A DNA stretch of 64,000 bases from contig DYEV01000032.1 of assembly GCA_020725545.1 (NCBI GenBank), forward strand, positions 62,001 through 126,000. Reading direction: 5' to 3'. Source of the DNA: Desulfobacca sp. Its GTDB lineage: Bacteria; Desulfobacterota; Desulfobaccia; Desulfobaccales; Desulfobaccaceae. The translations under genes and the position numbers were made by a program. The notes beneath the pieces were generated by a model. The model worked only from the letters and a program-made list of their open reading frames with translations. It was not told the DNA's origin and searched no databases. Shown here piece after piece: positions 74-20,180 of this stretch (the stretch's first letter is position 1; each line of letters begins with the position of its first letter).

Positions 74-1051
74 ATGCATATGTCTTTTTGGCAGGAAATC
101 CCCTTTGTGCGCCTGGCTTATACGTATCGCTGCCAGGAAGAGCTCCATCTCCCCCGCTATAAGGGTTCGGCCTTGCGCGGTGCCTTTGGCCATGCTTTGA
201 AAAAGGTCACGTGTGCCTTGCGGCGGGCTTCGTGTACCGAGTGTCTCCTCCGGCAGTCCTGCGTCTATGTCTATGTTTTTGAGACGCCGCCGCCTCCCGG
301 AAGTCGGCGCCTGCGGTTATACCCTGCGGCCCCGCACCCTTTTGTGCTCCGCCCGCCGGCCGATCCGCGGCTACGCTTTGCACCCGGGGAAGCGCTCAGC
401 GGCGAATTGCTGCTTATCGGCCGGGCCATTGATTACCTGCCCTATTTTGTCTATACCCTGGAGGTGTTGGGTCAGGAAGGCTTGGGCCGCGGCCGGGGGC
501 GGGCTGAGCTGGTCGAGGTCCGCGAACTGGACCGCAGGCAGCAACCAGTGGGCGAGATCTATGCCGCGACTACCGGCTTGCTCACTGCGCCGACCCAGGC
601 TGCCCGGCGCCAGACCAAGGCCGCGGCGGCACAATCGCCTCATCAGGCCCTTGATCTTTCACTGGAATTTCTGACCCCCGTCCGTTTGAAATATCAGGGG
701 CGTTTCCTGGAACGGCTGGAATTCCATCACCTGATCCGCAACCTCCTGCGCCGCCTGGCCTCTTTGGCCTACTTCCACTGTGGTCTCGATCCGGAGGCCT
801 TTTCTTTTAAGGAAACCATCGCCGCGGCCGAAATAGTTCTTAGTTCCTCTTGTCAACTCCAGTGGCTGGATTGGGAGAGGTACTCCAGTCGCCAACAGAG
901 CCGCCTGCTCATGGGTGGCCTCATTGGCAAGATTCAGTTCCGGGAGGTTCCACCTCCATTCTTTTCTCTGCTGCTCACCGGCGAAGACCTCCATGTGGGC
1001 AAAATGGCCAGCTTCGGGCTGGGCAGGTATGAAATGGCGATAACAACTTAA
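74..1051 (+). CDS. cas6: Cas6-family CRISPR RNA processing endoribonuclease
   Basis: This is a RAMP-fold endoribonuclease that would cut the CRISPR precursor transcript within each repeat to make crRNAs for the Csm complex. The 325-residue protein has the N-terminal pattern of the larger type III Cas6 group (LPRYKGSALRGAFGHALK), followed by a cysteine cluster near residues 47-63 (C-x6-C-x2-C-x5-C) that may bind a metal. A glycine-rich loop near the C-terminus (HVGKMASFGLGRY) is typical of RAMPs. An ATG at 80 is an alternative start. It is the first gene of a tightly packed csm operon, 16 bases ahead of the CARF gene. The catalytic residue cannot be assigned by eye because Cas6 active sites vary. 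Family assignment is confident. Confidence 0.88.
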   Translation: MHMSFWQEIPFVRLAYTYRCQEELHLPRYKGSALRGAFGHALKKVTCALRRASCTECLLRQSCVYVYVFETPPPPGSRRLRLYPAAPHPFVLRPPADPRLRFAPGEALSGELLLIGRAIDYLPYFVYTLEVLGQEGLGRGRGRAELVEVRELDRRQQPVGEIYAATTGLLTAPTQAARRQTKAAAAQSPHQALDLSLEFLTPVRLKYQGRFLERLEFHHLIRNLLRRLASLAYFHCGLDPEAFSFKETIAAAEIVLSSSCQLQWLDWERYSSRQQSRLLMGGLIGKIQFREVPPPFFSLLLTGEDLHVGKMASFGLGRYEMAITT

Positions 1052-1067: not shown

Positions 1068-2186
1068 ATGCGGTATCGGGATGTTCTCATCTGTACAGTC
1101 GGCACCAGTCTGCTGGGGAATTTACAGAAAATTGATAATGAGCGTCTTAGCAGAGACTTACAGAATCACAATCACGTGGGCTTGGCCCTCCACCTTCTCC
1201 AAGTATCTCCCGACGATCGACTCTTAGGGGCGGAAATTAATTCCATCACCAGTATCATCCGCCACAACCTCCTCCAGGACCGCCGCCAGCTCATCTTGTT
1301 AATATCCGATACCGCAGATGGCACCTTTATCGGCCAAGTCCTGCGCCAGTATTACGAGCATGCCAAAAACCCCTATCGGTTCCGCCAGGTGAATGTGCAA
1401 ACCCTGGAGGGCCTCACCGACACCGCGGCCCAGCGTTTCCGGACCGAGGGACTCCGCAGTCTGGTCCGCGCCATCGCCAAAGTAGTCCGTCTCGAAACCT
1501 CCGAACGTCTGGTCATCAACGCCACCGGCGGTTACAAAGCCCAGATCTCTTTTGCCGGCATGATCGGCCAGGCTTTGGAGATCCCGGTCTGCTACTTGTT
1601 TGAAAAATTCAGTGAAGTCATCGAATTACCCCCCCAACCCATTGCCCTGGACCTCTCCTTCTGGCTGGAAAACGTTGAGACCTTCTTCGCCCTGGATCAG
1701 AACGAATTGGCAGAAAATCCGACGTCACACGATGAAAAATTTGCATCGTTAGTGGATGAAATTTCAACAAATGGCCAGACGCTCATCGGCTTCTCGGCCG
1801 TCGGCCAATTGTTCCACGAAACTTACCAACATTGGTTTGCTAAACAAAGACTCAACATCCTGCCGCCCAGCACTGCCATTCCCCCAGAAAAGAAAGACAT
1901 TAGCTATGAAGACAGCAACCCGGGGCGCCTCAGAGGCCTCCAGGGTTTCCTGGAAAAAATCTGCCAACTACCGTATGTTACCAGGATCAATACCTTTTAT
2001 TACAATCGCGATCTCCCACTGAAACCGTATTTCCGTCCCGCTGCCCAAGGTGATCCGGCCTCAGTGGAAGGTGGTTATAGCGACGGCAAGGCTACCACAA
2101 AATTCAATATTTTTACCACTGCGACCACGCCTGCCCAGCAACGGGCGGTCATCGCTGATTTATGCGGCCGTTTTGGAAAGGGATAA
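1068..2186 (+). CDS. CARF-domain CRISPR ancillary effector (APE2256/Csm6-like N-terminus, non-HEPN C-terminus)
   Basis: The first ~190 residues are a CARF (CRISPR-associated Rossmann fold) sensor: the opening strand and loop ICTVGTSL and a second ligand-binding motif, NATGGYKAQI, near residue 151. CARF domains bind cyclic oligoadenylate made by Cas10. After this comes a short helical, winged-helix-like part (about 215-265) and a C-terminal domain of about 90 residues. No R-x4-6-H HEPN motif is present in the C-terminal part, and that part has no histidine after about residue 260, so it is not a classic Csm6 ribonuclease. The domain order and the final strand-helix pattern (FNIFTTATTPAQQ) would fit a RelE-type toxin, as in the CARF-RelE protein Cami1, but that is inference. 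It is co-transcribed between cas6 and cas10. An RBS-like GGAGAAATAA precedes the ATG. Confidence 0.8.
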   Translation: MRYRDVLICTVGTSLLGNLQKIDNERLSRDLQNHNHVGLALHLLQVSPDDRLLGAEINSITSIIRHNLLQDRRQLILLISDTADGTFIGQVLRQYYEHAKNPYRFRQVNVQTLEGLTDTAAQRFRTEGLRSLVRAIAKVVRLETSERLVINATGGYKAQISFAGMIGQALEIPVCYLFEKFSEVIELPPQPIALDLSFWLENVETFFALDQNELAENPTSHDEKFASLVDEISTNGQTLIGFSAVGQLFHETYQHWFAKQRLNILPPSTAIPPEKKDISYEDSNPGRLRGLQGFLEKICQLPYVTRINTFYYNRDLPLKPYFRPAAQGDPASVEGGYSDGKATTKFNIFTTATTPAQQRAVIADLCGRFGKG

Positions 2187-2225
2187 AGGTTGCAAGGAAA
2201 CATCTGGGATTTTAAGGGTATATAC

Positions 2226-4835
2226 ATGGACGAGACAGCCTTAAAAATTGCCGCAGCCGGTCTCTGTCATGATCTCGGCAAGTTTATGGAGTTTGATCTC
2301 CTGGACCTGCCGGCTGATTTTCGGGAACGGCATGCCGAGCTCTATCAACCGTTCCATAGAGCTTCCGGCCAATACACCCATAATCATGCCTTATTGACGG
2401 CTGCATTTATAGAAAGCCAAAAGACCCATCTCCCACCCGAGTTTAATCCCCCTCATCATGAACCATGGGGCGAAGGTGACCCTTTCATCAATCTGGCGGC
2501 AGGGCACCATCTGCCGGAGAGCAGCCCCTGGCGTTGGCTGATTGCCGAAGCTGATCGTTTGGCCTCCGGTTGGGAGCGCCAAACAGGGGCGGGAGAAAAG
2601 GAACTGGTGGCGCCGCAACACTACCGACGGACCCGCCTGGCGCCCCTTTTGGCCCAGCTCTGTCCAGACAGTTTTCTGGAACCGCTGGCGGCTGGCCAAG
2701 GGAGAGATTTGGCAATCCCGCTGGCTCCCCTGGCGCCAGAAACCATCTTCCCCCAACCTCTTCAGGGTAGCCATGGAGATGCTGCCCAACTGTATCGGGA
2801 CCATTGCGCCGGTTTCTTGGCCGCCCTCCGCAGCCTGGCGCACCAGGCCGAGAGCATCGAGCTCTGGCTGGAGCACTTTGACAGCCTCCTTTTGCACTAT
2901 ACCGCCGCCATTCCTGCCCTTCGGGCTGGAGACGTGGAACCTTCAAGGGATGTTTCGTTGTATGATCATGCCCGGGCCACCGCCGCCCTGGCCGCGGCCC
3001 TCTACCTTTACCATAAGCAGACCGAGACGTTGACGGTGCAGGCCATCCGTGACCAACAGACGGCCAAGTTTCTTTTTGTCAGCGGTGATTTTTACGGCAT
3101 CCAGGATTATATCTTTGCCAGCGGTGGGGAGACGCAGCGGTATCGGGCCAAGTTGTTGCGGGGCCGTTCTTTCGCGGTCTCGCTGTTAACGGAACTGACC
3201 GCGGATCGCCTCTGCCGGGAGCTGGGCTTGTCCTTCCTGTCGGTGGTGCTCAATGCCGCAGGGAAGTTCCTGATTATTGCCCCCCAGACGCAGGCAGCCA
3301 AAGAAACGGTGGCGAGGGTGCGGCGGGAGGTCAACCAATGGCTTTATGAAGTGTCATATGGAGAAAATGCCGTCGGTTTGACCTGTCGGGCGGTAAAAGC
3401 CAAGGACCTCCTGGCCGGCGGCTTTCGCGACCTGTGGCAGGCCATCGGCCGGGATCTGGAGGCGGCCAAGCTGGATCGCCTGGAGGCTCAGCATTTCGGA
3501 CCAGTGGGCAATTATCTGGAGCAATTCCGCAACGATCTATCCCGGCCACTCTGTCCCTTGTGCGGCAAACGGCCCTCCCGGTTAGCCGGAGAAGATGATG
3601 ATTATGTGCAGGAAGTGGGATCGTGCTGCAAAATCTGCCGGGATCACATCTTCCTGGGAGCGAACCTGGTAAAACGCCGGCGTCTGGCCATTGTCTCGCT
3701 GACGGCAGACTTGCATGATCAGCAGAACCGCCTTTTAAAACCCCTGTTGGGGCGCTACCAGGTCCTTTTCCCGGAAGGACGGTTGGCCGCGCTGGCGCAA
3801 GCAGGAAAATTGCTCCGGCTGTGGGACCTGTCGCTGCCAGCGCCGGGTGAGTTCAGCCCTCTGGAGATTACCCGCCGCTTCCTCAACGGCTATGTGCCGG
3901 TGGTACAGCCCGAAGACCGTCAGGATCCTCGGTTGGCGGCCTTCCCAGCCGAGGAATTGGAGCCCGGCAATCCCAAAACTTTGGGTCAACTGGCCCGGCA
4001 GGCTTTGAACTTTACCGCGCAGCCCGGACGCTATGAAGGCCTGGAAGCCTTGGGAGTCTTAAAAGCCGATGTGGATAACTTGGGGGCCATCATCCTGGAA
4101 GGCTTGCCTGCCGAGAAATTCACTTTGGCCCGCTTGGCAACGTTGAGCCGACAGATGCATTTTTTCTTCTGCTACTACCTTCCGTATCTCTTGCAGAAAG
4201 AGAGAGGGTTCCGGGATACCTATACTGTGTTTGCGGGGGGTGATGATCTCTTTCTCATCGGCCCCTGGTCCAACATCCTCTCCCTGGCTCGGACCATTCC
4301 CGTGGAGTTTGCCCGGTACGTGGGACAGAACGAGGTATTACACCTCTCCGCCGGGGTTGTGTTAGCCAAACCTCACGTTCCCATTCACCAACTGGCGGCC
4401 ATGGCCGAAGAGGCTCTGGAGGATGCCAAAACCGGCGAAAAAAATGCCCTGGCGCTGTTTGGCGAAGTCGTATCCTGGCCTCAGGTGAACGGACTCAATG
4501 ATGTCCGAACCAGGCTGGAGACCTGGTGGCAGGTCGGCTGGCTAACCTCAGGCCTGCTCTACCGCCTCAACGATCTCATTGCCTTGGCGGGAGAAGAGCG
4601 CCGCCTCCTCAAAATGGGGAGCGGTATCTATGTGGCTGATCTGGCCTGCTGTAAGTGGCGGAGTTATTTGGCCTATACCGTGGGCCGCAATGTGGCCCTG
4701 AATCTAAAAGGTGACGCCCGGCAGCGGGCCGTGCAAGAAGTCCATCAAAATCTAGCCGCCTGGCTGGAGAACTACGGCAGTGCCTTGAAGTTGCCCTTGT
4801 GGGAACTGCTCTATGCGAAACGCCTCAGGAGGTAA
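2226..4835 (+). CDS. csm1: Cas10/Csm1, large subunit of the type III-A complex
   Basis: This is the signature subunit of type III CRISPR-Cas. It cuts single-stranded DNA through the HD domain and makes cyclic oligoadenylates through the palm domain when target RNA is bound. The N-terminal HD motif is seen as CHDLGKF near residue 13. Four cysteines in two pairs (CPLC near 443 and CKIC near 468-471) form the usual zinc ribbon. The polymerase-like GGDD motif is at residues 671-674, with an intact FAGGDDLF context, so cyclase activity is expected. Length is about 869 residues, normal to slightly long. The ATG at 2226, with AAGGG seven bases upstream, is preferred over an in-frame TTG at 2190 because homologues begin just before the HD motif. 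The next gene follows after four bases. Confidence 0.95.
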   Translation: MDETALKIAAAGLCHDLGKFMEFDLLDLPADFRERHAELYQPFHRASGQYTHNHALLTAAFIESQKTHLPPEFNPPHHEPWGEGDPFINLAAGHHLPESSPWRWLIAEADRLASGWERQTGAGEKELVAPQHYRRTRLAPLLAQLCPDSFLEPLAAGQGRDLAIPLAPLAPETIFPQPLQGSHGDAAQLYRDHCAGFLAALRSLAHQAESIELWLEHFDSLLLHYTAAIPALRAGDVEPSRDVSLYDHARATAALAAALYLYHKQTETLTVQAIRDQQTAKFLFVSGDFYGIQDYIFASGGETQRYRAKLLRGRSFAVSLLTELTADRLCRELGLSFLSVVLNAAGKFLIIAPQTQAAKETVARVRREVNQWLYEVSYGENAVGLTCRAVKAKDLLAGGFRDLWQAIGRDLEAAKLDRLEAQHFGPVGNYLEQFRNDLSRPLCPLCGKRPSRLAGEDDDYVQEVGSCCKICRDHIFLGANLVKRRRLAIVSLTADLHDQQNRLLKPLLGRYQVLFPEGRLAALAQAGKLLRLWDLSLPAPGEFSPLEITRRFLNGYVPVVQPEDRQDPRLAAFPAEELEPGNPKTLGQLARQALNFTAQPGRYEGLEALGVLKADVDNLGAIILEGLPAEKFTLARLATLSRQMHFFFCYYLPYLLQKERGFRDTYTVFAGGDDLFLIGPWSNILSLARTIPVEFARYVGQNEVLHLSAGVVLAKPHVPIHQLAAMAEEALEDAKTGEKNALALFGEVVSWPQVNGLNDVRTRLETWWQVGWLTSGLLYRLNDLIALAGEERRLLKMGSGIYVADLACCKWRSYLAYTVGRNVALNLKGDARQRAVQEVHQNLAAWLENYGSALKLPLWELLYAKRLRR

Positions 4836-4839
4836 GGTT

Positions 4840-5229
4840 ATGATTATTGAATTCTGGCAGGATGAGGCAAAAAAAATTGTCAATCCGGAAATTTTTTCGG
4901 TTAAAGCGGCAAAACTCTCAGAGACCTTGGCGGGCGTGAGAAACCGAAACAAGAGAACCCAGATCCGCCGGTTCTATGATGAAGTCCTCCGCTTTGATCA
5001 GGATGCCAAAACCCTGGGGGCAGAGAAATGGCCGGATATTCTGGCCCGCTTGCATCTCCTCATCCCCAAGGCTGCCTATGCCCAGGGGAGGGAGTTGGTT
5101 TCTAAAGAATTCGTCGAATTCATCAAAGGGTCTGTCCAGCAGGTGCAGAGCCGGGAGGACTTGGCAGTTTTCGCCAATCTCTTCGAAGCATTCATGGGAT
5201 TCTATCGGCTGGATCGCCCCAAGGATTAA
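4840..5229 (+). CDS. csm2: Csm2, small helical subunit of the type III-A complex
   Basis: Csm2 forms the inner filament of the Csm complex and contacts the crRNA-target duplex. The 129-residue protein is predicted all-helical and carries the family pattern near its middle (RRFYDEVLRF and a C-terminal FEAFMGFYR). The start at 4840 has a strong AGGAGG seven bases upstream. An in-frame ATG at 4813 lies inside cas10 and is less likely. Its size and position between csm1 and csm3 match the canonical type III-A order. Confidence 0.92.
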   Translation: MIIEFWQDEAKKIVNPEIFSVKAAKLSETLAGVRNRNKRTQIRRFYDEVLRFDQDAKTLGAEKWPDILARLHLLIPKAAYAQGRELVSKEFVEFIKGSVQQVQSREDLAVFANLFEAFMGFYRLDRPKD

Positions 5230-5248: not shown

Positions 5249-5959
5249 ATGAAGCTGCTTGATATTCTCAATATAACCGGCAGGATTATCGTGAAGACGG
5301 GTCTGCGCATCGGCGCCGGCGACAGTGAAATGCGCATCGGCGGCTTGGACAACCCCATCATCAAGCATCCCCACACCCTGGAACCCTATATCCCTGGTTC
5401 TTCCCTGAAAGGCAAGGTGCGCAGCCTCCTGGAACTGCAGAGCGGTCTGGTGCCCTTTACGAAAGGCGGGCCGCTGGCTTTAAAGCACCTGAAAAATATC
5501 AACAACGACCAGCAAGCTCGTGGCCGCAAGATCATCAAACTCTTCGGCACGGGCGGCGCCGAAGAGGAAGAGCTGCTGGAACAGGAGATCGGCCCCACCC
5601 GGGTGGCCTTTGCCGATTGCAGCCTGAACGAAGCCTGGAAGAAAAAGGCTCTCGACGAGGGCTGGACGTTCACCGAAGTCAAAAGCGAGAACACCATCAA
5701 CCGGATCACCAGCGTGGCCCAACACCCCCGGCAGATGGAACGGGTGCCGGCCGGCGCCGAGTTTGATTTCCGGGTGACTCTGAAAAAATTCGATCAGGAT
5801 GCTGCGGACAACCTGGATGCTCTCTTGCTGGCGGGCCTGAAGCTGTTGACCCTGGATGCCTTGGGCGGCTGCGGCAGCCGGGGCTATGGCCGGATTGAAT
5901 TTCACTTTGACGATGCTGACTTGGCGGCGCAGTTCCACAACCTCTCGGCCTTTGCCTAA
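5249..5959 (+). CDS. csm3: Csm3, backbone RAMP subunit and target-RNA nuclease
   Basis: Csm3 forms the repeated backbone of the Csm complex and cuts target RNA at six-base intervals. The 236-residue protein starts with the RAMP strand KLLDILNITGRI and has the loop with the catalytic aspartate (GGLDNPI, Asp34). The family signature YIPGSSLKGKVRSLLE follows, and a glycine-rich stretch GGCGSRGYGRIEF lies near the C-terminus. The Asp34 assignment follows known Csm3 proteins and looks intact, so RNA cleavage is expected. AGGAGG precedes the ATG by six bases. Confidence 0.95.
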   Translation: MKLLDILNITGRIIVKTGLRIGAGDSEMRIGGLDNPIIKHPHTLEPYIPGSSLKGKVRSLLELQSGLVPFTKGGPLALKHLKNINNDQQARGRKIIKLFGTGGAEEEELLEQEIGPTRVAFADCSLNEAWKKKALDEGWTFTEVKSENTINRITSVAQHPRQMERVPAGAEFDFRVTLKKFDQDAADNLDALLLAGLKLLTLDALGGCGSRGYGRIEFHFDDADLAAQFHNLSAFA

Positions 5960-5974
5960 CGGGGGAGGGAACGC

Positions 5975-7033
5975 ATGCGCTGTTATGAGATTGCTCTCAG
6001 GCCCGAAACGGCCTTTGGCACGCCGTTGGTGGGGGATACTTTGTTCGGCCACTTCTGTTGGCAGGTGTGGTATCAGCCTGACCTAGTGAAGCGGCCTTTT
6101 TCCCAGCTCCTGGCTTCGTATCCGGAGCAACCGTTTATTGTCTTCTCTTCCGCCTGGCCCCGCTGGCAAAAAAACGGGCAGCTGTGGTATGCCTTGCCCC
6201 GTCCTACCCTGCCCCGCTCGTTCTGGCAGGAAAAAGCCGGCCCGCCGGCCCAAGGGGGGTGTCGGGAAAGATTACAGCACCGGCCGGACAAGGAATTAAA
6301 GAAGAAATGCTGGCTCTTAGTCGGCCAGGACCTGAAGATCGATTATCGCCAACTGCTTAGTGAGGCAGACTTGTATGCCAAGATAATCGCCAGCCAGCCG
6401 CCGACGTCGGCCCTGTATCGCCAATTATATCGGAATGAATTGCGGCAGATCCGGGTGAGCCAGGGGCAGCCCCATAACACCATAAATCGCAATAATAACC
6501 GCACCGGTTCGGAACCCTTCCGGCCTTACACCCTGGATGTTTGGTTTTACTGTCCCGGCCTGACCCTGGCCCTCTTCGTGCTGCTGGATGAACAGGTAAT
6601 CGGTCTGGAACAGGTTGTTCAAGGTCTGCGGCAGATGGGCCAGACCGGCTTCGGCCGGGATGCCTCCACCGGTCTCGGTCGCTTTGCGGTTGTAGAGTCC
6701 CGGGAAATACCCTTGCCGACGCTGACCCAGGGGAATGCCCTGTTTACCTTGGCGCCGTCGGTGCCAGAGGCAGGGTCTTATCGCCGGGCCTACTATCAAC
6801 CCCTGGTCCGCTTTGGCCGACATGGCGACCGCCTGGCTATCTCCCGCAACCCGTTCAAAGCCCCGGTGATCATGGCTGCGGCCGGGGCTGTCTTTGTGCC
6901 GACGCAAAGTGAATCCTTTTCCCTGCCGTGGTGGGGCCAAGCGGTGACAGGTGTTTCCAATATTCAAGAAGCCACCATTGTCCAGGGTTATTCGCCCTAT
7001 CTGCCGCTGACACTGGAGGTCAGCCATGCATAA
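5975..7033 (+). CDS. csm4: Csm4, RAMP subunit capping the crRNA 5' end
   Basis: Csm4 binds the 5' handle of the crRNA and anchors Cas10. The 352-residue protein opens with the typical RAMP pattern (FGTPLVGDTLFGHFCW) and has a conserved glycine-rich segment in its second half (QTGFGRDASTGLGRF). Length is slightly above the usual ~300 residues. Its last eight bases overlap the csm5 start, suggesting translational coupling. An RBS (GGGGGAGGGA) lies just upstream of the ATG. Confidence 0.93.
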   Translation: MRCYEIALRPETAFGTPLVGDTLFGHFCWQVWYQPDLVKRPFSQLLASYPEQPFIVFSSAWPRWQKNGQLWYALPRPTLPRSFWQEKAGPPAQGGCRERLQHRPDKELKKKCWLLVGQDLKIDYRQLLSEADLYAKIIASQPPTSALYRQLYRNELRQIRVSQGQPHNTINRNNNRTGSEPFRPYTLDVWFYCPGLTLALFVLLDEQVIGLEQVVQGLRQMGQTGFGRDASTGLGRFAVVESREIPLPTLTQGNALFTLAPSVPEAGSYRRAYYQPLVRFGRHGDRLAISRNPFKAPVIMAAAGAVFVPTQSESFSLPWWGQAVTGVSNIQEATIVQGYSPYLPLTLEVSHA

Positions 7034-8474
7034 AACCATCTCTTTTCTGATCCAGACCGTTGCTCCCCTGCACTTGGGTTGTGATGAGGTCTACGAGCCT
7101 CTGAACGTGGTTTTTGATACGGACAAGAAATGCCTTGTTGCCTTTGACGTCTATGACTTCCTGCAGCGATTACCGGACTCGGAGCGGGAAAAATTTCTCA
7201 CTATCTGCCGGCAGGGTACGGTGGGTTCGATCTTAGACATCTATAAGTTCATGGCCCGCCATGCCAACCTGGCCCAAGGCAGGGAAGTGCCGGTGACCGC
7301 TGCCCTCCTGGTACATTACAAAAAGGTCCTGGCATTACTGGATCGAGACTTTTCCCGGCAATTGAATAAATTCGCCATCCACCGGACCGCCTTTCTGCCC
7401 TTGGATCAACGGCCGTATATCCCCGGCTCGGCCATCAAAGGTGCAGTGCGCACGGCTTATCTTAATAAGATAGCCGAAAAGGAAGGGATTGCCCTTTCTG
7501 GCCAAGACCAAGACGACGGACGGGGGCTGGAGAGAAAACTGCTTAACGGGAGTTTCCAAACCGATCCATTTCGCCTGTTGAAAATTTCGGATTTCCTGCC
7601 AGTTGGGGAAGCCAAGACACGTATCCTTTACGCCGTCAATTTAAAAAAAGAAGGCGGCCAAGGGCATGGCCCCTATCAGATCTTGGAGGTCATAGAGCCG
7701 GGGGCCTGCTTCCTGGGGACCATCCATTTGGAAGAGTGGCCGGAGGAGATGCGGCAGGCGGCCCGGGACGTGCAGGCACATATCTCTCGTCCGATCAGAG
7801 CCAATACTCTTTGGCAGAGTATTGTCAATTTTTTTACCAAGGAAAAGTCCCGGGAAGACGAAGAACTCTTTGCCCTCGGTCTGCCTAAAGTAATCCTACC
7901 TTTGCACAACGGCGACCTGCCCCTGCGTCTGGGCCGCCACTCCGGCGCCGAATGCCTTACTTTGCCGGGCTATCGACGCATCAAGATCAAGACCGGCCGC
8001 AATCAAACAGAGACCAAGGATCACGCCACCACATTGTGGTTGGCTGCCACCGCCCAAGAAAAATGGTCGGAGCCGCCTCGTCCCTTCGGCTGGGTTATCT
8101 TACGTCGGGTTACCGATGAATTAAAACAAGAATGTTTGGCGAAGGAACATGCTTGGCAGGAACAGCAAAAATCTCGGGGCAAGTTAGCTCCCTCTGCCGT
8201 CAAGCCAAAGGTTGAACCAACCCCTGCCGACCCATCTCCACCTCCGGCACCGGCGGAAGAAATCTGGAAACAGGCAACCCTCACCTGGAATCCCGGCAAG
8301 CAGGAGTTGGCGGCAACGGGACCCGGGAACAAAAAGGCCGCCTGCAAGGGGATGGAGCTGGTGCCGGCAGAGCACCAGGCCAAATTGAAAAAGAAGGGCT
8401 TAAAGGCCGCGGTGACGGTGGAGCCATTGGGGAACGCCTGGAAAATCGTTAAGATAGAAGTCGTCGTTTCCTAA
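7026..8474 (+). CDS. csm5: Csm5, terminal RAMP subunit with an extra C-terminal domain
   Basis: Csm5 caps the 3' end of the crRNA filament and helps crRNA maturation. The N-terminal pattern TVAPLHLGCDEVYEP and the RAMP signature YIPGSAIKGAVRTAYLNK (near residue 136) identify it. At 482 residues it is about 100 longer than typical. From about residue 375 a charged helix leads to a Pro/Ala-rich linker, then an ~80-residue domain (about 405-482) with a beta-rich look and a basic KKAACKGMELVP element that ends in KIVKIEVVV. That domain is not part of ordinary Csm5. It could be a small nucleic-acid-binding module, which is inference. Confidence 0.93.
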   Translation: MHKTISFLIQTVAPLHLGCDEVYEPLNVVFDTDKKCLVAFDVYDFLQRLPDSEREKFLTICRQGTVGSILDIYKFMARHANLAQGREVPVTAALLVHYKKVLALLDRDFSRQLNKFAIHRTAFLPLDQRPYIPGSAIKGAVRTAYLNKIAEKEGIALSGQDQDDGRGLERKLLNGSFQTDPFRLLKISDFLPVGEAKTRILYAVNLKKEGGQGHGPYQILEVIEPGACFLGTIHLEEWPEEMRQAARDVQAHISRPIRANTLWQSIVNFFTKEKSREDEELFALGLPKVILPLHNGDLPLRLGRHSGAECLTLPGYRRIKIKTGRNQTETKDHATTLWLAATAQEKWSEPPRPFGWVILRRVTDELKQECLAKEHAWQEQQKSRGKLAPSAVKPKVEPTPADPSPPPAPAEEIWKQATLTWNPGKQELAATGPGNKKAACKGMELVPAEHQAKLKKKGLKAAVTVEPLGNAWKIVKIEVVVS

Positions 8475-8584
8475 CCCATCATCTTTAACCAGCGTATATG
8501 GCCATGATGTTCGGAGGGCTGAGCGGTTTCGCCCTTCTGTCAGTGGCTTTGCTTAATCTTGCCTTCTTAACTATAGGTCCAACT

Positions 8585-8977
8585 ATGCCCCCCAGCCTTT
8601 TCCTCATCTTTAACCATACGTTCACTGCGGCGCAGGAGCAGGCGGCGGCTGGGCAGTTGGGCGTGGGCGAGATCGTGGCTTTGCCGCCGGAGCTGCAGGC
8701 TTTATGGAGCCAGGTGCCGCCGGAGCTGCCAGAGCTCAGGCATTATCTGCAGCCGCTCTGCCGCTGGCTGGCGGCACAGGCGCAACCCGGCGACGTTGTC
8801 CTCATCCAGGGGGATTTCGGGGCTACGTATCTTATGGTAAATTTTGCTCTGGCGCAGGGCCTCATCCCGGTCTATGCCACGACCCGACGGCAGGCCCGGG
8901 AGGACCACTTGCCCGACGGCACCGTGAAGATGGTCCATCATTTTCAGCATCAGATGTTTCGCCGCTATGGAGTATGA
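8585..8977 (+). CDS. csx20: Csx20-like CRISPR ancillary protein, possible ring nuclease
   Basis: This is a 130-residue protein with the Csx20 pattern: an opening strand SLFLIFNH, then LPPELQALWSQVPP, a GDVVLIQGDFGATY segment and PVYATTRR near the C-terminus. Csx20 is one of the small CARF-related proteins found alone in type III loci and proposed to bind or degrade cyclic oligoadenylate. I recognise the family from sequence pattern only. The ATG at 8585 is chosen because the conserved domain begins there, although its RBS is weak. An in-frame ATG at 8498 would add 29 mostly hydrophobic residues. The gene ends four bases before the Csx1-like gene, so the two are surely co-expressed. Confidence 0.75.
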   Translation: MPPSLFLIFNHTFTAAQEQAAAGQLGVGEIVALPPELQALWSQVPPELPELRHYLQPLCRWLAAQAQPGDVVLIQGDFGATYLMVNFALAQGLIPVYATTRRQAREDHLPDGTVKMVHHFQHQMFRRYGV

Positions 8978-8980
8978 GTC

Positions 8981-10276
8981 ATGGCCAGAGTGTATCTGTC
9001 TTTTTTGGGCACCAATGATTACGTGGAGTGCCACTATGTTCTGAGCGGTCAAGTAAGTCCGCTGGTCAGGTTTGTGCAGGAGGCCATCGTCGGCCTGCGT
9101 TGTGCCGATTGGAGCAAAGAGGACCGGCTGGTCTTTTTCTTAACGACGGACGCAGCCCGGCACAACTGGGAGGATGGCCATTTTATTGATCTCCAGGGCA
9201 GACCCAAGCCGGGGTTGCGCAGTCGTCTGCAAGCCCTCAAGGTGGCGTCCGCCATCAAGCCGGTAATGATTGTGGAGGGGAAGAACGAAGCCGACATCTG
9301 GCAGGTTTTCAATACGGTGTTGCAAGAGATCAAGCCTCACGATCAGGTCATCTTTGACATTACCCATGCCTTCCGGTCCATCCCCCTACTGGCCATGGTC
9401 ATCCTGGGCTATGCCCAGGTCATCAAAAATATTAAGATCGACGGCATTTATTATGGTGCCTTTGAGGTGTTGGGGCCGGTCCAGGTGGTGCGGCAAATGC
9501 CGGCCGGGGAGCGCCAGGCCCCCATCTTCGATCTGACCCCCTTTAGTGCCTTGTTGGACTGGACCATGGCCATTGACCGCTTCCTGGGCACCGGCGATGC
9601 CCGGCGGGTCTGCGAGCTGGCCCAGAGCACGGTGCGGCCGATTCTGAAGGAGACCAAAGGACAGGATCAGGAGGCCCAGGCCATCCGGCGCATGGCCGGG
9701 CTGCTGGAGAATTTCACCAAAAACTTGCGCACCTGCCGGGGGCGGGAGATCAGTCGAAATGCGGCGGCGTTGCAGCAGGCCCTGAACGTGAGCGCGTATC
9801 CGGATCTCCTGCCGCCCTTCAAGCCGCTGCTCTATCAACTCAGCAAAAGGATGCAAGGGTTTAGGGGCGAGCCGGTCCGAGATGGCCTGCAGGCGGCCCG
9901 TTGGTGCCTGGAGCATAATCTTATCCAGCAGGGGCTGACCATTTTACAGGAAACCCTGATCACCCATGTCGTCACCCAGGGCGGTTTTGACCCCGGTGAT
10001 AAGAAATATCGTGATCTGGCCAGCCAGGCGGCCAACATTTTCTGCAATCACATTGAGCCCGCGGCCTGGCTGCCGCCGGCTGCCAATCATCGGGATATTG
10101 TCCAAAAGCATCTGGACTTTTTTCAGGAGCACGCTGAATTGGCCAAAATCTACCGCAACCTTAGCCAACCCCGCAACGATATCAATCATGCCGGCTATGT
10201 GCAGCCGCGCCCGGCCGAGGATCTGGCCAAGGATTTGGCAGACTTTATTAGCCAGGTGGAACCATGGCTGGCTTGA
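8981..10276 (+). CDS. csx1: Csx1/TM1812-family CARF-HEPN effector ribonuclease
   Basis: This is a second cyclic-oligoadenylate-responsive effector. The N-terminal CARF domain begins VYLSFLGTNDY and carries the family signature DITHAFRS at residues 126-133, which corresponds to the DxTHG-type motif of the TM1812/Csx1 families. The C-terminal half is helical and contains an R-x4-H HEPN active-site motif (RNDINH, Arg398 to His403). The 431-residue length fits. It is expected to degrade RNA non-specifically when the Cas10 signal binds. It is the last gene of the operon. Unlike the CARF protein at 1068-2186 its nuclease motif is intact. Confidence 0.9.
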   Translation: MARVYLSFLGTNDYVECHYVLSGQVSPLVRFVQEAIVGLRCADWSKEDRLVFFLTTDAARHNWEDGHFIDLQGRPKPGLRSRLQALKVASAIKPVMIVEGKNEADIWQVFNTVLQEIKPHDQVIFDITHAFRSIPLLAMVILGYAQVIKNIKIDGIYYGAFEVLGPVQVVRQMPAGERQAPIFDLTPFSALLDWTMAIDRFLGTGDARRVCELAQSTVRPILKETKGQDQEAQAIRRMAGLLENFTKNLRTCRGREISRNAAALQQALNVSAYPDLLPPFKPLLYQLSKRMQGFRGEPVRDGLQAARWCLEHNLIQQGLTILQETLITHVVTQGGFDPGDKKYRDLASQAANIFCNHIEPAAWLPPAANHRDIVQKHLDFFQEHAELAKIYRNLSQPRNDINHAGYVQPRPAEDLAKDLADFISQVEPWLA

Positions 10277-18017: not shown

Positions 18018-18815
18018 ATGAAAAGATTCTTGGTGGGTTTCTTTGCTTTGCTTGCCGTGGTGTTGGGCAGTCAGTCCTTGCTCTTGGCCGCCGAGGCCCA
18101 GGGTGTGCCGGTGCTCTGTTACCATCGCTTTGGCCCCAAGGTTGCTGACAGCATGACCACGACCACGCCGACTTTCGCGGCCCAACTGCAATGGCTGCAG
18201 GACAACGGCTATACGGTCATACCGCTGCGGACTTTGGTCAATTATCTGTTGGGCCAGGGACCGCCCCCCCCTCCCAAAGCGGTGGTCATCACCGCGGACG
18301 ATGCCCATAAAACTGTCTACAGCGATATGCTGCCGTTGCTCAAGAAGTATAATATGCCAGTGACCCTCTTTGTCTATCCCTCGGCCGTCTCCCGGGCTGA
18401 CTACGTCATGACTTGGGAACAGCTCAAGGAATGTCAGGACACCGGCTTGGTGGACATCCAGTCCCACACCTTTTGGCACCCTAATTTTAAGAAGGAAAAA
18501 AAGAAGCTGAAACCAGAGGAATACCAGAAGCTGGTGCACGACCAGTTAACCAAATCCAAGGCTTCTCTGGAAAGACGCTTCGGCAAAACCGTGGATATCC
18601 TGGCCTGGCCCTTCGGCATCTATGACGAGGAACTGGAGCAGGCCGCAGCTAAAGCCGGGTATGTGGCAGCCTTCAGCATTGAACGCCGGTTGGCCAACCC
18701 CTCGGAGCGTATCATGGCCCAACCCCGTTACATGATTACCGAAGCCGATAAAAGCAAGAATTTTGTAGCTTTTGTCAGCGGTAAAGTCAGCGAAAAAGGC
18801 CCCCGGACATACTGA
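18018..18815 (+). CDS. secreted polysaccharide deacetylase (NodB-type)
   Basis: This is a carbohydrate esterase family 4-type protein. The signal peptide spans KRFLVGFFALLAVVLGSQSLLLAAEA. Mature motifs are VPVLCYHRF, VVITADDAHKTVYSDMLPLL (motif 1, with DD) and DIQSHTFWHPNF (zinc-binding H-x4-H region). WPFG-type and final motifs follow. The expected job is deacetylation of a cell-surface polymer. ATG at 18018 is preferred to 17997 because the signal peptide begins there. A 7-bp inverted repeat (17961-17967/17985-17991) lies upstream. Confidence 0.9.
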   Translation: MKRFLVGFFALLAVVLGSQSLLLAAEAQGVPVLCYHRFGPKVADSMTTTTPTFAAQLQWLQDNGYTVIPLRTLVNYLLGQGPPPPPKAVVITADDAHKTVYSDMLPLLKKYNMPVTLFVYPSAVSRADYVMTWEQLKECQDTGLVDIQSHTFWHPNFKKEKKKLKPEEYQKLVHDQLTKSKASLERRFGKTVDILAWPFGIYDEELEQAAAKAGYVAAFSIERRLANPSERIMAQPRYMITEADKSKNFVAFVSGKVSEKGPRTY

Positions 18816-18917
18816 CAGGTTGATGCCATAGTGCTTTCGGGGAGGGGGCAGGGGGAGTTGGCCCCTGGCCCCTCCATCACAAGATCTTTCAACTGACCTG
18901 CCATTCTGACAGGAGAT

Positions 18918-20180
18918 ATGGCGATGATCAAATTGCTCTGGGCTGTGCTTCTTCTCCTCCCGCTGTGGGCTCCTGCCGACGTTTTGGCGGTTACGGGACG
19001 GGTGTTGGATGCCAAGACCCAGGCCCCCATTGCCAGGGCCTTTGTGGCCATGGGTGAGCAGGGAGTTTGGACTGACCAGGAGGGGCGTTTTCAACTGGAC
19101 GCCGCCGGTGCGACTATCAAAGTCAAGGCACCCGGCTATCAGCGCCGGGAGGTGCCGCTGGCGGGCCAAGCCGAAGCTGAGATCACCTTGGAGCCCTTCC
19201 ACGTCAAGGCCTTGTATCTCACCGTCTATGGCGTGGCCGTGCCCCGCATCCGGGAGGCGGCCATTGCTGCAGTAGAACGCAACAACATGAATGCCCTGGT
19301 CATCGACATCAAGGGCGACCGCAGTTTTATCCCTTTCCCGGTGGACATCCCTTTGGCCAAAGAGGTGGGGGCGCAGAATACCATCCTGGTCAAAGATATG
19401 AAGGCCATGGTCGCGGCCCTGAAAGAGAAAAACCTCTACCTCATTGCCCGCATCGTCGTCTTTAAAGACAACCTGCTGGCCACCGCCAAACCGGAGTGGG
19501 CCGTGCGGACCAAAGGCGGGGCCATCTTCAAGGATCGGGAGCGCCTCCGCTGGATTGACCCCTTTCGCCGGGAGGCCTGGGACTATAATATTGCCGTGGC
19601 CAAAATCGCCGCAGAATTGGGCTTTGACGAAGTGCAGTTCGACTATGTCCGCTTCCCCGACAACCGGGGCACGGGCTATTCCCAGCCGGTCAATGAAAAC
19701 ACCCGCACCGCCACCATCACCGCCTTCCTGGAGACGGCCTACCAGGCCCTAATCCCCTACAATATCATGGTGGGAGCCGATATCTTCGGCTATGTCTGCT
19801 GGAATACCAACGACACCGACATCGGCCAGAAGATCGCCCCCATCGTCAACGCCATCGACGTGGTCTGCCCCATGGTCTATCCTTCGGGCTACAACTGGGG
19901 CATCCCCAACTACCGCAATCCGGTGAAACATCCCTACGAAATCGTTTATCTCTCCCTGAAGCGGGCCCAAGAGCGGACCGGCGTTTCGCCCCTGCGCTTC
20001 CGGCCCTGGCTCCAGGCCTTCCGGGACTATGCCTACGGTGGCGGCGACTTTACCGAAGAACGCATGCGCATCCAGATCCAGGCGGCCCAGGACTTCGGCG
20101 CCAGCGGCTTCATGTTCTGGAACCCCCGGAATATCTATCCCACCGGGGTGTTCGCCGTGTCTACTGGAAAGAGGGAGTAG
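18918..20180 (+). CDS. DUF4015 putative glycoside hydrolase with N-terminal carboxypeptidase-regulatory-like domain
   Basis: A signal peptide (IKLLWAVLLLLPLWAPADVLA) is followed by a ~70-residue beta-sandwich of the carboxypeptidase-regulatory type (VTGRVLDAKTQAPIARAFV). A ~320-residue DUF4015 TIM-barrel domain completes the protein. Diagnostic segments are NNMNALVIDIKGDRS, GFDEVQFDYVRFPDN and VCPMVYPSGYNWG. The acidic residues in these strands suggest a glycosidase. The substrate is unknown, though the neighbouring deacetylase hints at an exopolysaccharide. Confidence 0.88.
   Translation: MAMIKLLWAVLLLLPLWAPADVLAVTGRVLDAKTQAPIARAFVAMGEQGVWTDQEGRFQLDAAGATIKVKAPGYQRREVPLAGQAEAEITLEPFHVKALYLTVYGVAVPRIREAAIAAVERNNMNALVIDIKGDRSFIPFPVDIPLAKEVGAQNTILVKDMKAMVAALKEKNLYLIARIVVFKDNLLATAKPEWAVRTKGGAIFKDRERLRWIDPFRREAWDYNIAVAKIAAELGFDEVQFDYVRFPDNRGTGYSQPVNENTRTATITAFLETAYQALIPYNIMVGADIFGYVCWNTNDTDIGQKIAPIVNAIDVVCPMVYPSGYNWGIPNYRNPVKHPYEIVYLSLKRAQERTGVSPLRFRPWLQAFRDYAYGGGDFTEERMRIQIQAAQDFGASGFMFWNPRNIYPTGVFAVSTGKRE

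Follow-up and report, generated by a model that had tools for sequence, protein, structure and literature searches.

The csm5 gene of this type III-A CRISPR locus from Desulfobacca sp. encodes a protein with a long C-terminal extension, and the question it raises is what this extension is and what it could do at the crRNA 3' end. Maturation and capping of the crRNA 3' end in type III systems are only partly known, with housekeeping nucleases serving in S. epidermidis and a dedicated NYN nuclease proposed in Bacteroides in the accessible part of PMC11346440. A domain confined to the two cap subunits, with its own fold and conserved residues, is a direct handle on this 3'-end question, and the tail marks a natural attachment point on the Csm and Cmr complexes. 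The window, which is the whole stretch of 64,000 nucleotides that was analysed, carries an intact type III-A operon (cas6, CARF protein, cas10, csm2, csm3, csm4, csm5, csx20 and csx1) with the following features.

74..1051, + strand: cas6 (PF10040, 63 bits)
1068..2186, + strand: CARF protein (CARF7--CARF_DUF2103 model, PDLC01930, E 1e-123)
2190..4835, + strand: cas10/csm1 (TIGR02578, 587 bits)
4813..5229, + strand: csm2
5252..5959, + strand: csm3 (TIGR02582, 216 bits)
5975..7033, + strand: csm4, which overlaps the start of csm5 (TIGR01903, over cut-off)
7026..8474, + strand: csm5, whole frame, 482 aa (TIGR01899, over cut-off; PADLOC Csm5 models)
7026..8117, + strand: Csm5 body, residues 1-364, common to solved Csm5 (superposition Z up to 22.5)
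8118..8255, + strand: helix (to residue 383) and proline-rich, low-confidence linker (residues 386-406, pLDDT <50)
8256..8471, + strand: predicted OB-fold, cold-shock-like C-terminal domain, residues 411-482 (model, tail alignment and structure comparison)
8585..8977, + strand: csx20 (NF040559, 160 bits)
8981..10276, + strand: csx1-like CARF-HEPN protein (TIGR02221; PDLC01824, E 3e-118)

The C-terminal domain of the window Csm5

The window protein scores 52.9 bits against TIGR01899 in NCBIfam (cut-off 38.3, residues 10-242), and its gene follows csm4 in a cas10-csm2-csm3-csm4 operon, as expected of Csm5. A full-length AlphaFold2 model was built from 19 related proteins, and in this model the body (residues 1-364) superposes on 6mur_F with Z 22.5 and rmsd 3.2 Å over 307 aligned residues. 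For the solved Csm5 chains listed, the alignment ends near residue 364 and the final 118 residues have no counterpart. Thus, about 118 residues of the window Csm5 are extra, compared with the roughly 100 of the original prediction. The Csm5 proteins in the solved structures listed are 340-403 residues long, with the exception of that from S. marcescens (559). Beyond the confident body, the model shows a helix to residue 383, a stretch at residues 386-406 with pLDDT <50 and a region at about residues 411-480 with pLDDT near 90. The proline-rich linker that had been proposed is borne out by this low-confidence stretch and by the nine prolines read from the sequence at about residues 380-410. The span given earlier for the extension, 8150-8474, needs a small correction, as 8150 lies one base off the reading frame; in-frame codons begin at 8151 and give the stretch 8151-8471.

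The original prediction also described a small, basic, beta-rich domain and named structure prediction as the check on it. For the C-terminal 72 residues the computed pI is 9.6. Modelled by themselves, with 29 aligned tails as input, they gave a mean pLDDT of 89.2 and a pTM of 0.71, so that the domain is predicted to be folded (pLDDT 89) rather than disordered. Its secondary structure (E2-12, E17-21, E27-31, H38-46, E49-58, E61-69) is all-beta with one helix, and the strand order beta1-2-3-alpha-beta4-5 is that of an OB fold. We hold the anatomy of body, linker and folded basic C-terminal domain with high confidence. The C-terminal domain is predicted with confidence to be an OB fold, and to be cold-shock-like at the level of the fold only.

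The domain model was compared with known structures, also for the closed barrel of solved OB proteins. Among the best 50 Foldseek matches in the PDB, none of which fell under E 0.001, many were of OB type (cold-shock, S1, IF1/aIF1A and RecO). In VIA-align, cold-shock domains fill most of the top places, several of them solved with RNA. The best match was CspA (2l15; rmsd 2.3 Å, 62 of 72 residues) at Z 7.0, which is within the range common for models lacking a clear match, and a Z below 8 may indicate only a common arrangement. YB-1 with RNA (Z 6.7) and the phage-restriction factor BrxL (Z 6.6) were also found, and most of the VIA-align matches listed were cold-shock, EF-P or RecO OB domains, all with Z of 7.0 or less. 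Because Z reached only 7.0 and Foldseek gave no significant match, the likeness in fold does not show function.

Cold-shock proteins (CspA 2l15, YB-1 and Lin28b) are like the tail in fold, in size and in the aromatic residue that ends strand 1. By eye, strand 1 of the tail (A-T-L-T-W-N-P) resembles that of the genome's own cold-shock proteins (G-T-V-K-W-F-N), and position 11 of the domain, in the motif L-T-W-N-P-G, aligns with the Trp of V-K-W-F-N. In cold-shock proteins this Trp stacks on nucleic acid. However, the Csm5 tail differs from these proteins in having no sequence or profile match to them, no RNP1 or RNP2, and a basic loop instead. The RNP1 (KGFGFI-like) and RNP2 (VFVH-like) motifs are present in the genome's own cold-shock proteins but were absent by eye in the 29 tails. 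In addition, hhalign of the tail profile against a small profile of three of the genome's own cold-shock proteins gave a probability of 0.1. Membership in the cold-shock family was rejected on sequence, PF00313 matching neither the window tail nor 10 members. Other family searches likewise gave no assignment. Pfam found no family match for the window tail and 10 members (one member reached E 0.13 to a carboxylase domain), NCBIfam gave only a sub-cut-off topoisomerase VI match to the tail (E 0.055), PADLOC gave none, and a sequence search of the PDB with the tail found nothing below E 0.2.

Several positions of the domain are well conserved. The 29 aligned tails are 28-63% identical to the window tail, and the pI is above 9 in 27 of them. 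Aromatic residues are conserved at positions 4 (28 of 29), 11 (29 of 29) and 62 (25 of 28), and K/R at positions 26, 27, 31, 33 and 45-47, each in 23 to 25 of 28-29 tails. The K/R at 26, 27, 31 and 33 form the conserved basic loop. In the window protein, positions 4 and 11 correspond to W414 and W421, and the basic loop to residues 436-441. The dN/dS of the domain was about 0.14 between the window and its nearest relative (L004), about 0.13 between L035 and L040 and, in one further pair at a greater distance, about 0.48; these are rough figures from JC-corrected values with synonymous changes near saturation. On these figures the domain, once acquired, is kept under purifying selection, and it is more than a chance extension of the frame.

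Distribution of the domain on Csm5 and Cmr6

Among 395 genomes of the window's phylum, a search with a profile of 10 tails at E 0.01 found the domain 32 times, in 29 genomes. These 32 places came back as strong matches (E 1.2e-15 or better) when a profile of 29 tails was run on the 395 genomes, and a further 40 weak partial matches (E 5.9e-4 to 0.47) were left uncounted. Two of the weak places (G071 and G379) were examined, and the best re-matching one was an apparently secreted frame of 115 aa in G071 (E 0.0013). Within the window's class (29 genomes) seven matches were found, all at places already among these.

By frame, the 32 strong matches were divided among Csm5 (23), Cmr6 (8) and a single unassigned frame in G366, which a contig end truncates 109 residues from its stop. 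Counted with Csm5 are G374, where the frame starts inside Csm5 at a contig end, G009, where the body is on another contig, and G244. In G244 (G244:C17, L231:4053-4574) the OB-bearing C-terminus of Csm5 is broken by a stop, perhaps in a decaying gene or through an assembly error. The eight Cmr6 proteins (L083, L087, L093, L105, L106, L107, L152 and L157) carry the domain at the C-terminus behind a linker. All eight were over the TIGR01898 cut-off in the family search, as were all six of the eight rechecked with NCBIfam. Thus, III-B Cmr6 with an OB tail has the same domain by profile, at the same C-terminal place and with a linker, but in the Cmr complex. A search for the domain as a separate protein or fused to other RAMPs had been proposed; the fusion was found, to Cmr6, and among the 32 strong matches in the 395 genomes neither a standalone copy nor a further RAMP with the domain was seen.

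The domain profile, run on 644 frames from 41 neighbourhoods (21 with the tail, including the window, and 20 without), matched only Csm5 and Cmr6. No copy of the domain was found in plasmids or phages with one single-sequence query each, nor in viral contigs with the domain profile. A scan of genome contigs with the whole Csm5 as query returned one locus, L019 (Desulfuromonadales).

The family search of the 395 genomes gave 86 Csm5 and 50 Cmr6 rows, some of which are fragments or belong to the other of the two families. Four frames were dropped as short or misassigned, and G009 was counted as OB by virtue of its second contig. Among the 82 Csm5 frames used, the OB tail is on 21 and another tail of at least 60 residues past the body on 29, while 31 have none and 1 is cut. 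Presence as an ordinary part of most Csm5 proteins would have spoken against an extra domain; with 21 of 82, this is not the case. Of the Cmr6 rows, 40 of 50 were classed, as OB (8), other tail (18) or none (14). Tails are common on both cap subunits, and the OB domain is one type among several. In the available part of the open-licence literature, neither Csm5 nor Cmr6 was found described with a tail of OB or cold-shock-like type. What is new is a domain for which no family model was found, together with its restriction, in the genomes searched, to the cap subunits of two subtypes; the host protein, Csm5, is known.

Gain, loss or exchange of tails at the cap

The OB tail has been repeatedly gained, lost or exchanged. 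When the OB label was placed on a tree of Csm5 bodies with the tails removed, the best tree required 11 changes and its well supported branches force at least 6; this was a quick tree with some very long branches. In the best tree of the tails themselves, those of Cmr6 are not one clade (4 changes). Several transfers between Csm5 and Cmr6 are not claimed, as a single Cmr6 clade was not rejected (AU p 0.15, 72 columns).

Other tails occur at the same place. Csm5 L008, L016, L057, L065, L116, L122, L128 and L131 have unrelated, lysine-rich, helix-like C-terminal modules, that of L016 being judged by eye only. Profiles H1, H2, H3 and H5 represent other tail types, all called helix-like by reading the sequence. 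Profile H1 (Csm5 L008, L057, L116, L122 and L128) matches four Cmr6 (L091, L096, L155 and L159), profile H2 (seven Csm5) matches Cmr6 L085 and weakly L091, and profile H5 (five Cmr6) matches Csm5 L126, while H3 was on Csm5 only. L126 (G370:C123) is a 621-residue Csm5 frame with H2 and H5 modules in tandem, one typical of Csm5 and one of Cmr6. Also, the Csm5 of G206 and G346 (L033 and L034) have the OB tail and a zinc-ribbon-like stretch with two cysteine pairs, seen by eye, which lies towards the end of the frame but before the last conserved GW.

Beta-type tails of other kinds were also noted. The last 75 residues of Csm5 L056 and L068 form yet another beta-type tail, of a separate kind. The last 75 residues of Cmr6 L086 (G047:C7) read as cold-shock-like, and the Csm5 of that genome has the OB tail; Pfam and profile tests gave no support for a cold-shock domain in the L086 tail. 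Homology of the OB tail with the tails of L056/L068 and of L086 was unsupported (hhalign probability 3.6 and 1.9). Outside the window's phylum, long Csm5 tails exist as well, as in S. marcescens (9zs2 chain J). The S. marcescens Csm5 (559 aa; PDB 9zs2 and 9zs4; PMC13060164) is also long and aligns to about residue 384 of the window Csm5, but its long, charged tail aligns with the helix-like tail of L016 and not with the OB tail. The available text of PMC13060164 has no discussion of this tail that we met.

Of the 14 genomes in which both a Csm5 and a Cmr6 were classed, 10 have the same class of tail on the two (5.6 on average after shuffling, p 0.018), in a test that ignores relatedness and includes the near twins G206 and G346. 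The OB domain is on both subunits in 3 of the 14 (p 0.09). The window genome is among the four in which the class differs, its Cmr6 being tail-less and on another contig.

Since unrelated helical tails are likewise common to Csm5 and Cmr6, the cap looks like a plug-in site. The 3'-cap subunits may be a general accessory port, where Csm5 and Cmr6 share a pool of exchangeable C-terminal modules (at least three helical types besides the OB domain) that pass between the subtypes and are lost and regained inside each; we consider the chances of this to be about even. If true, the port would let each lineage customise the holding, trimming or protection of the crRNA 3' end. The same exchange could arise in an arms race, in which swapped, bulky, unrelated domains block phage inhibitors of the exposed cap and the fold itself matters little. 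Such a race would fit the label changes on the body tree (11 by parsimony, at least 6 forced) and the presence of at least four tail types common to Csm5 and Cmr6. However, purifying selection on the domain (dN/dS about 0.14 in two pairs) and its conserved aromatic and basic positions suggest a specific function, and we regard an arms race as an unlikely explanation.

Proposed function at the crRNA 3' end

RNA binding beside the cap is the preferred reading for several reasons. First, Csm5 binds the 3' end of the crRNA and is in contact with target RNA, as stated in the accessible part of PMC10289348, and Cmr6 and Cmr1 form the cap at this end in the PMC11346440 model, as far as its available text describes it. 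Secondly, the domain was found only on the two cap subunits and is therefore best read as acting on whatever exits the complex there. Third, nucleic-acid binding, one of the two roles suggested in the original prediction, is favoured by the predicted OB/cold-shock-like fold together with the charge, and single-stranded RNA in particular because of the fold, the charge and the conserved aromatics. The tethered OB domain would thus be an RNA-holding hand beside the cap, gripping single-stranded RNA that leaves the complex at the cap end. The likeliest RNA would be the 3' overhang that the repeat leaves on the immature crRNA, and the domain could present or guard it during 3' trimming. Alternatively, the domain may hold the target transcript by its flank and so make target capture faster. 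We give RNA binding beside the cap as the main job of the domain a probability of roughly 0.45.

Cold-shock and OB domains also bind single-stranded DNA, as in LmCsp with dT7 and Lin28b with hexathymidine, both among the VIA-align matches, and the domain could instead bind the single-stranded DNA of the transcription bubble and help the complex to act on it. However, the DNase site of Cas10 is at the crRNA 5' end, far from the cap, and no link between the tail and DNA appears in our data. A role on the DNA side is thus improbable.

The tail could also bind a housekeeping ribonuclease (PNPase, RNase R, RNase E/G or similar) and bring it to the crRNA 3' end. The window genome encodes PNPase, RNase R and two RNase E/G. 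The S. epidermidis Csm5 recruits PNPase and RNase R, and deletion of its IDR2 abolishes PNPase binding and leaves crRNA intermediates, according to the available text of PMC9762709 and, for the recruitment, of PMC10289348. There too, the C-terminal region is implicated in crRNA 3'-end work, but IDR2 is given in the accessible part of PMC9762709 as a short, predicted disordered stretch (residues 310-320) inside the body, whereas in the window Csm5 the folded OB domain stands by itself, some 50 residues past the body. Interchangeable tails on Csm5 and Cmr6 would fit different docks for one task, and the agreement of tail class in 10 of 14 genomes (p 0.018, relatedness not removed) is what a shared partner would give. 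However, co-occurrence of the OB domain on Csm5 and Cmr6 within a genome is no more than a hint (3 of 14, p 0.09), RNA accounts no less well for an OB fold with conserved basic and aromatic residues, and tail-less Csm5 is common (31 of 82) yet must mature crRNA too. For these reasons, docking of a nuclease ranks next after RNA holding, as a possible but less probable role.

As to the recruitment of an effector, the other role suggested in the original prediction, gene neighbourhoods pointed to no partner specific to the loci with OB tails. Between the 21 neighbourhoods with the tail and the 20 without, no partner gene specific to the former was found. Among the families that differed at p <0.05, cas10, csm3 and csm4 were commoner without the tail, and five families, Cmr6 among them, were found only with the tail, each in 5 of 21, because the tail set holds 5 Cmr loci and the other set none. 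These differences stem from the composition of the sets, and an OB-specific partner encoded in cis was rejected. Since no gene family is specific to these loci, a partner, if there is one, is probably an RNA or a housekeeping protein.

The holding of RNA by the OB domain also has points against it. Among these are the modest fold scores and the missing RNP1/RNP2 aromatics, and OB folds bind proteins too, a RecO chain in complex with the SSB C-terminus being among the Foldseek matches listed. The 31 of 82 Csm5 frames with no long tail count against this reading, and unrelated helical tails at the same attachment site would be odd if RNA holding were essential.

Lastly, some observations concern the rest of the CRISPR loci. 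No CRISPR array was seen near the III-A locus, in C32:44000-78000. The window genome also has a III-B Cmr locus (L233, G000:C14), with the tail-less Cmr6 frame at 7855-9144, and this locus adjoins a CRISPR array of at least 5 repeats at 18655-18981. In addition, a frame of 581 residues (L203:11152-12894) clusters with both the csx20 and the csx1 of the window and is perhaps a Csx1-Csx20 fusion.
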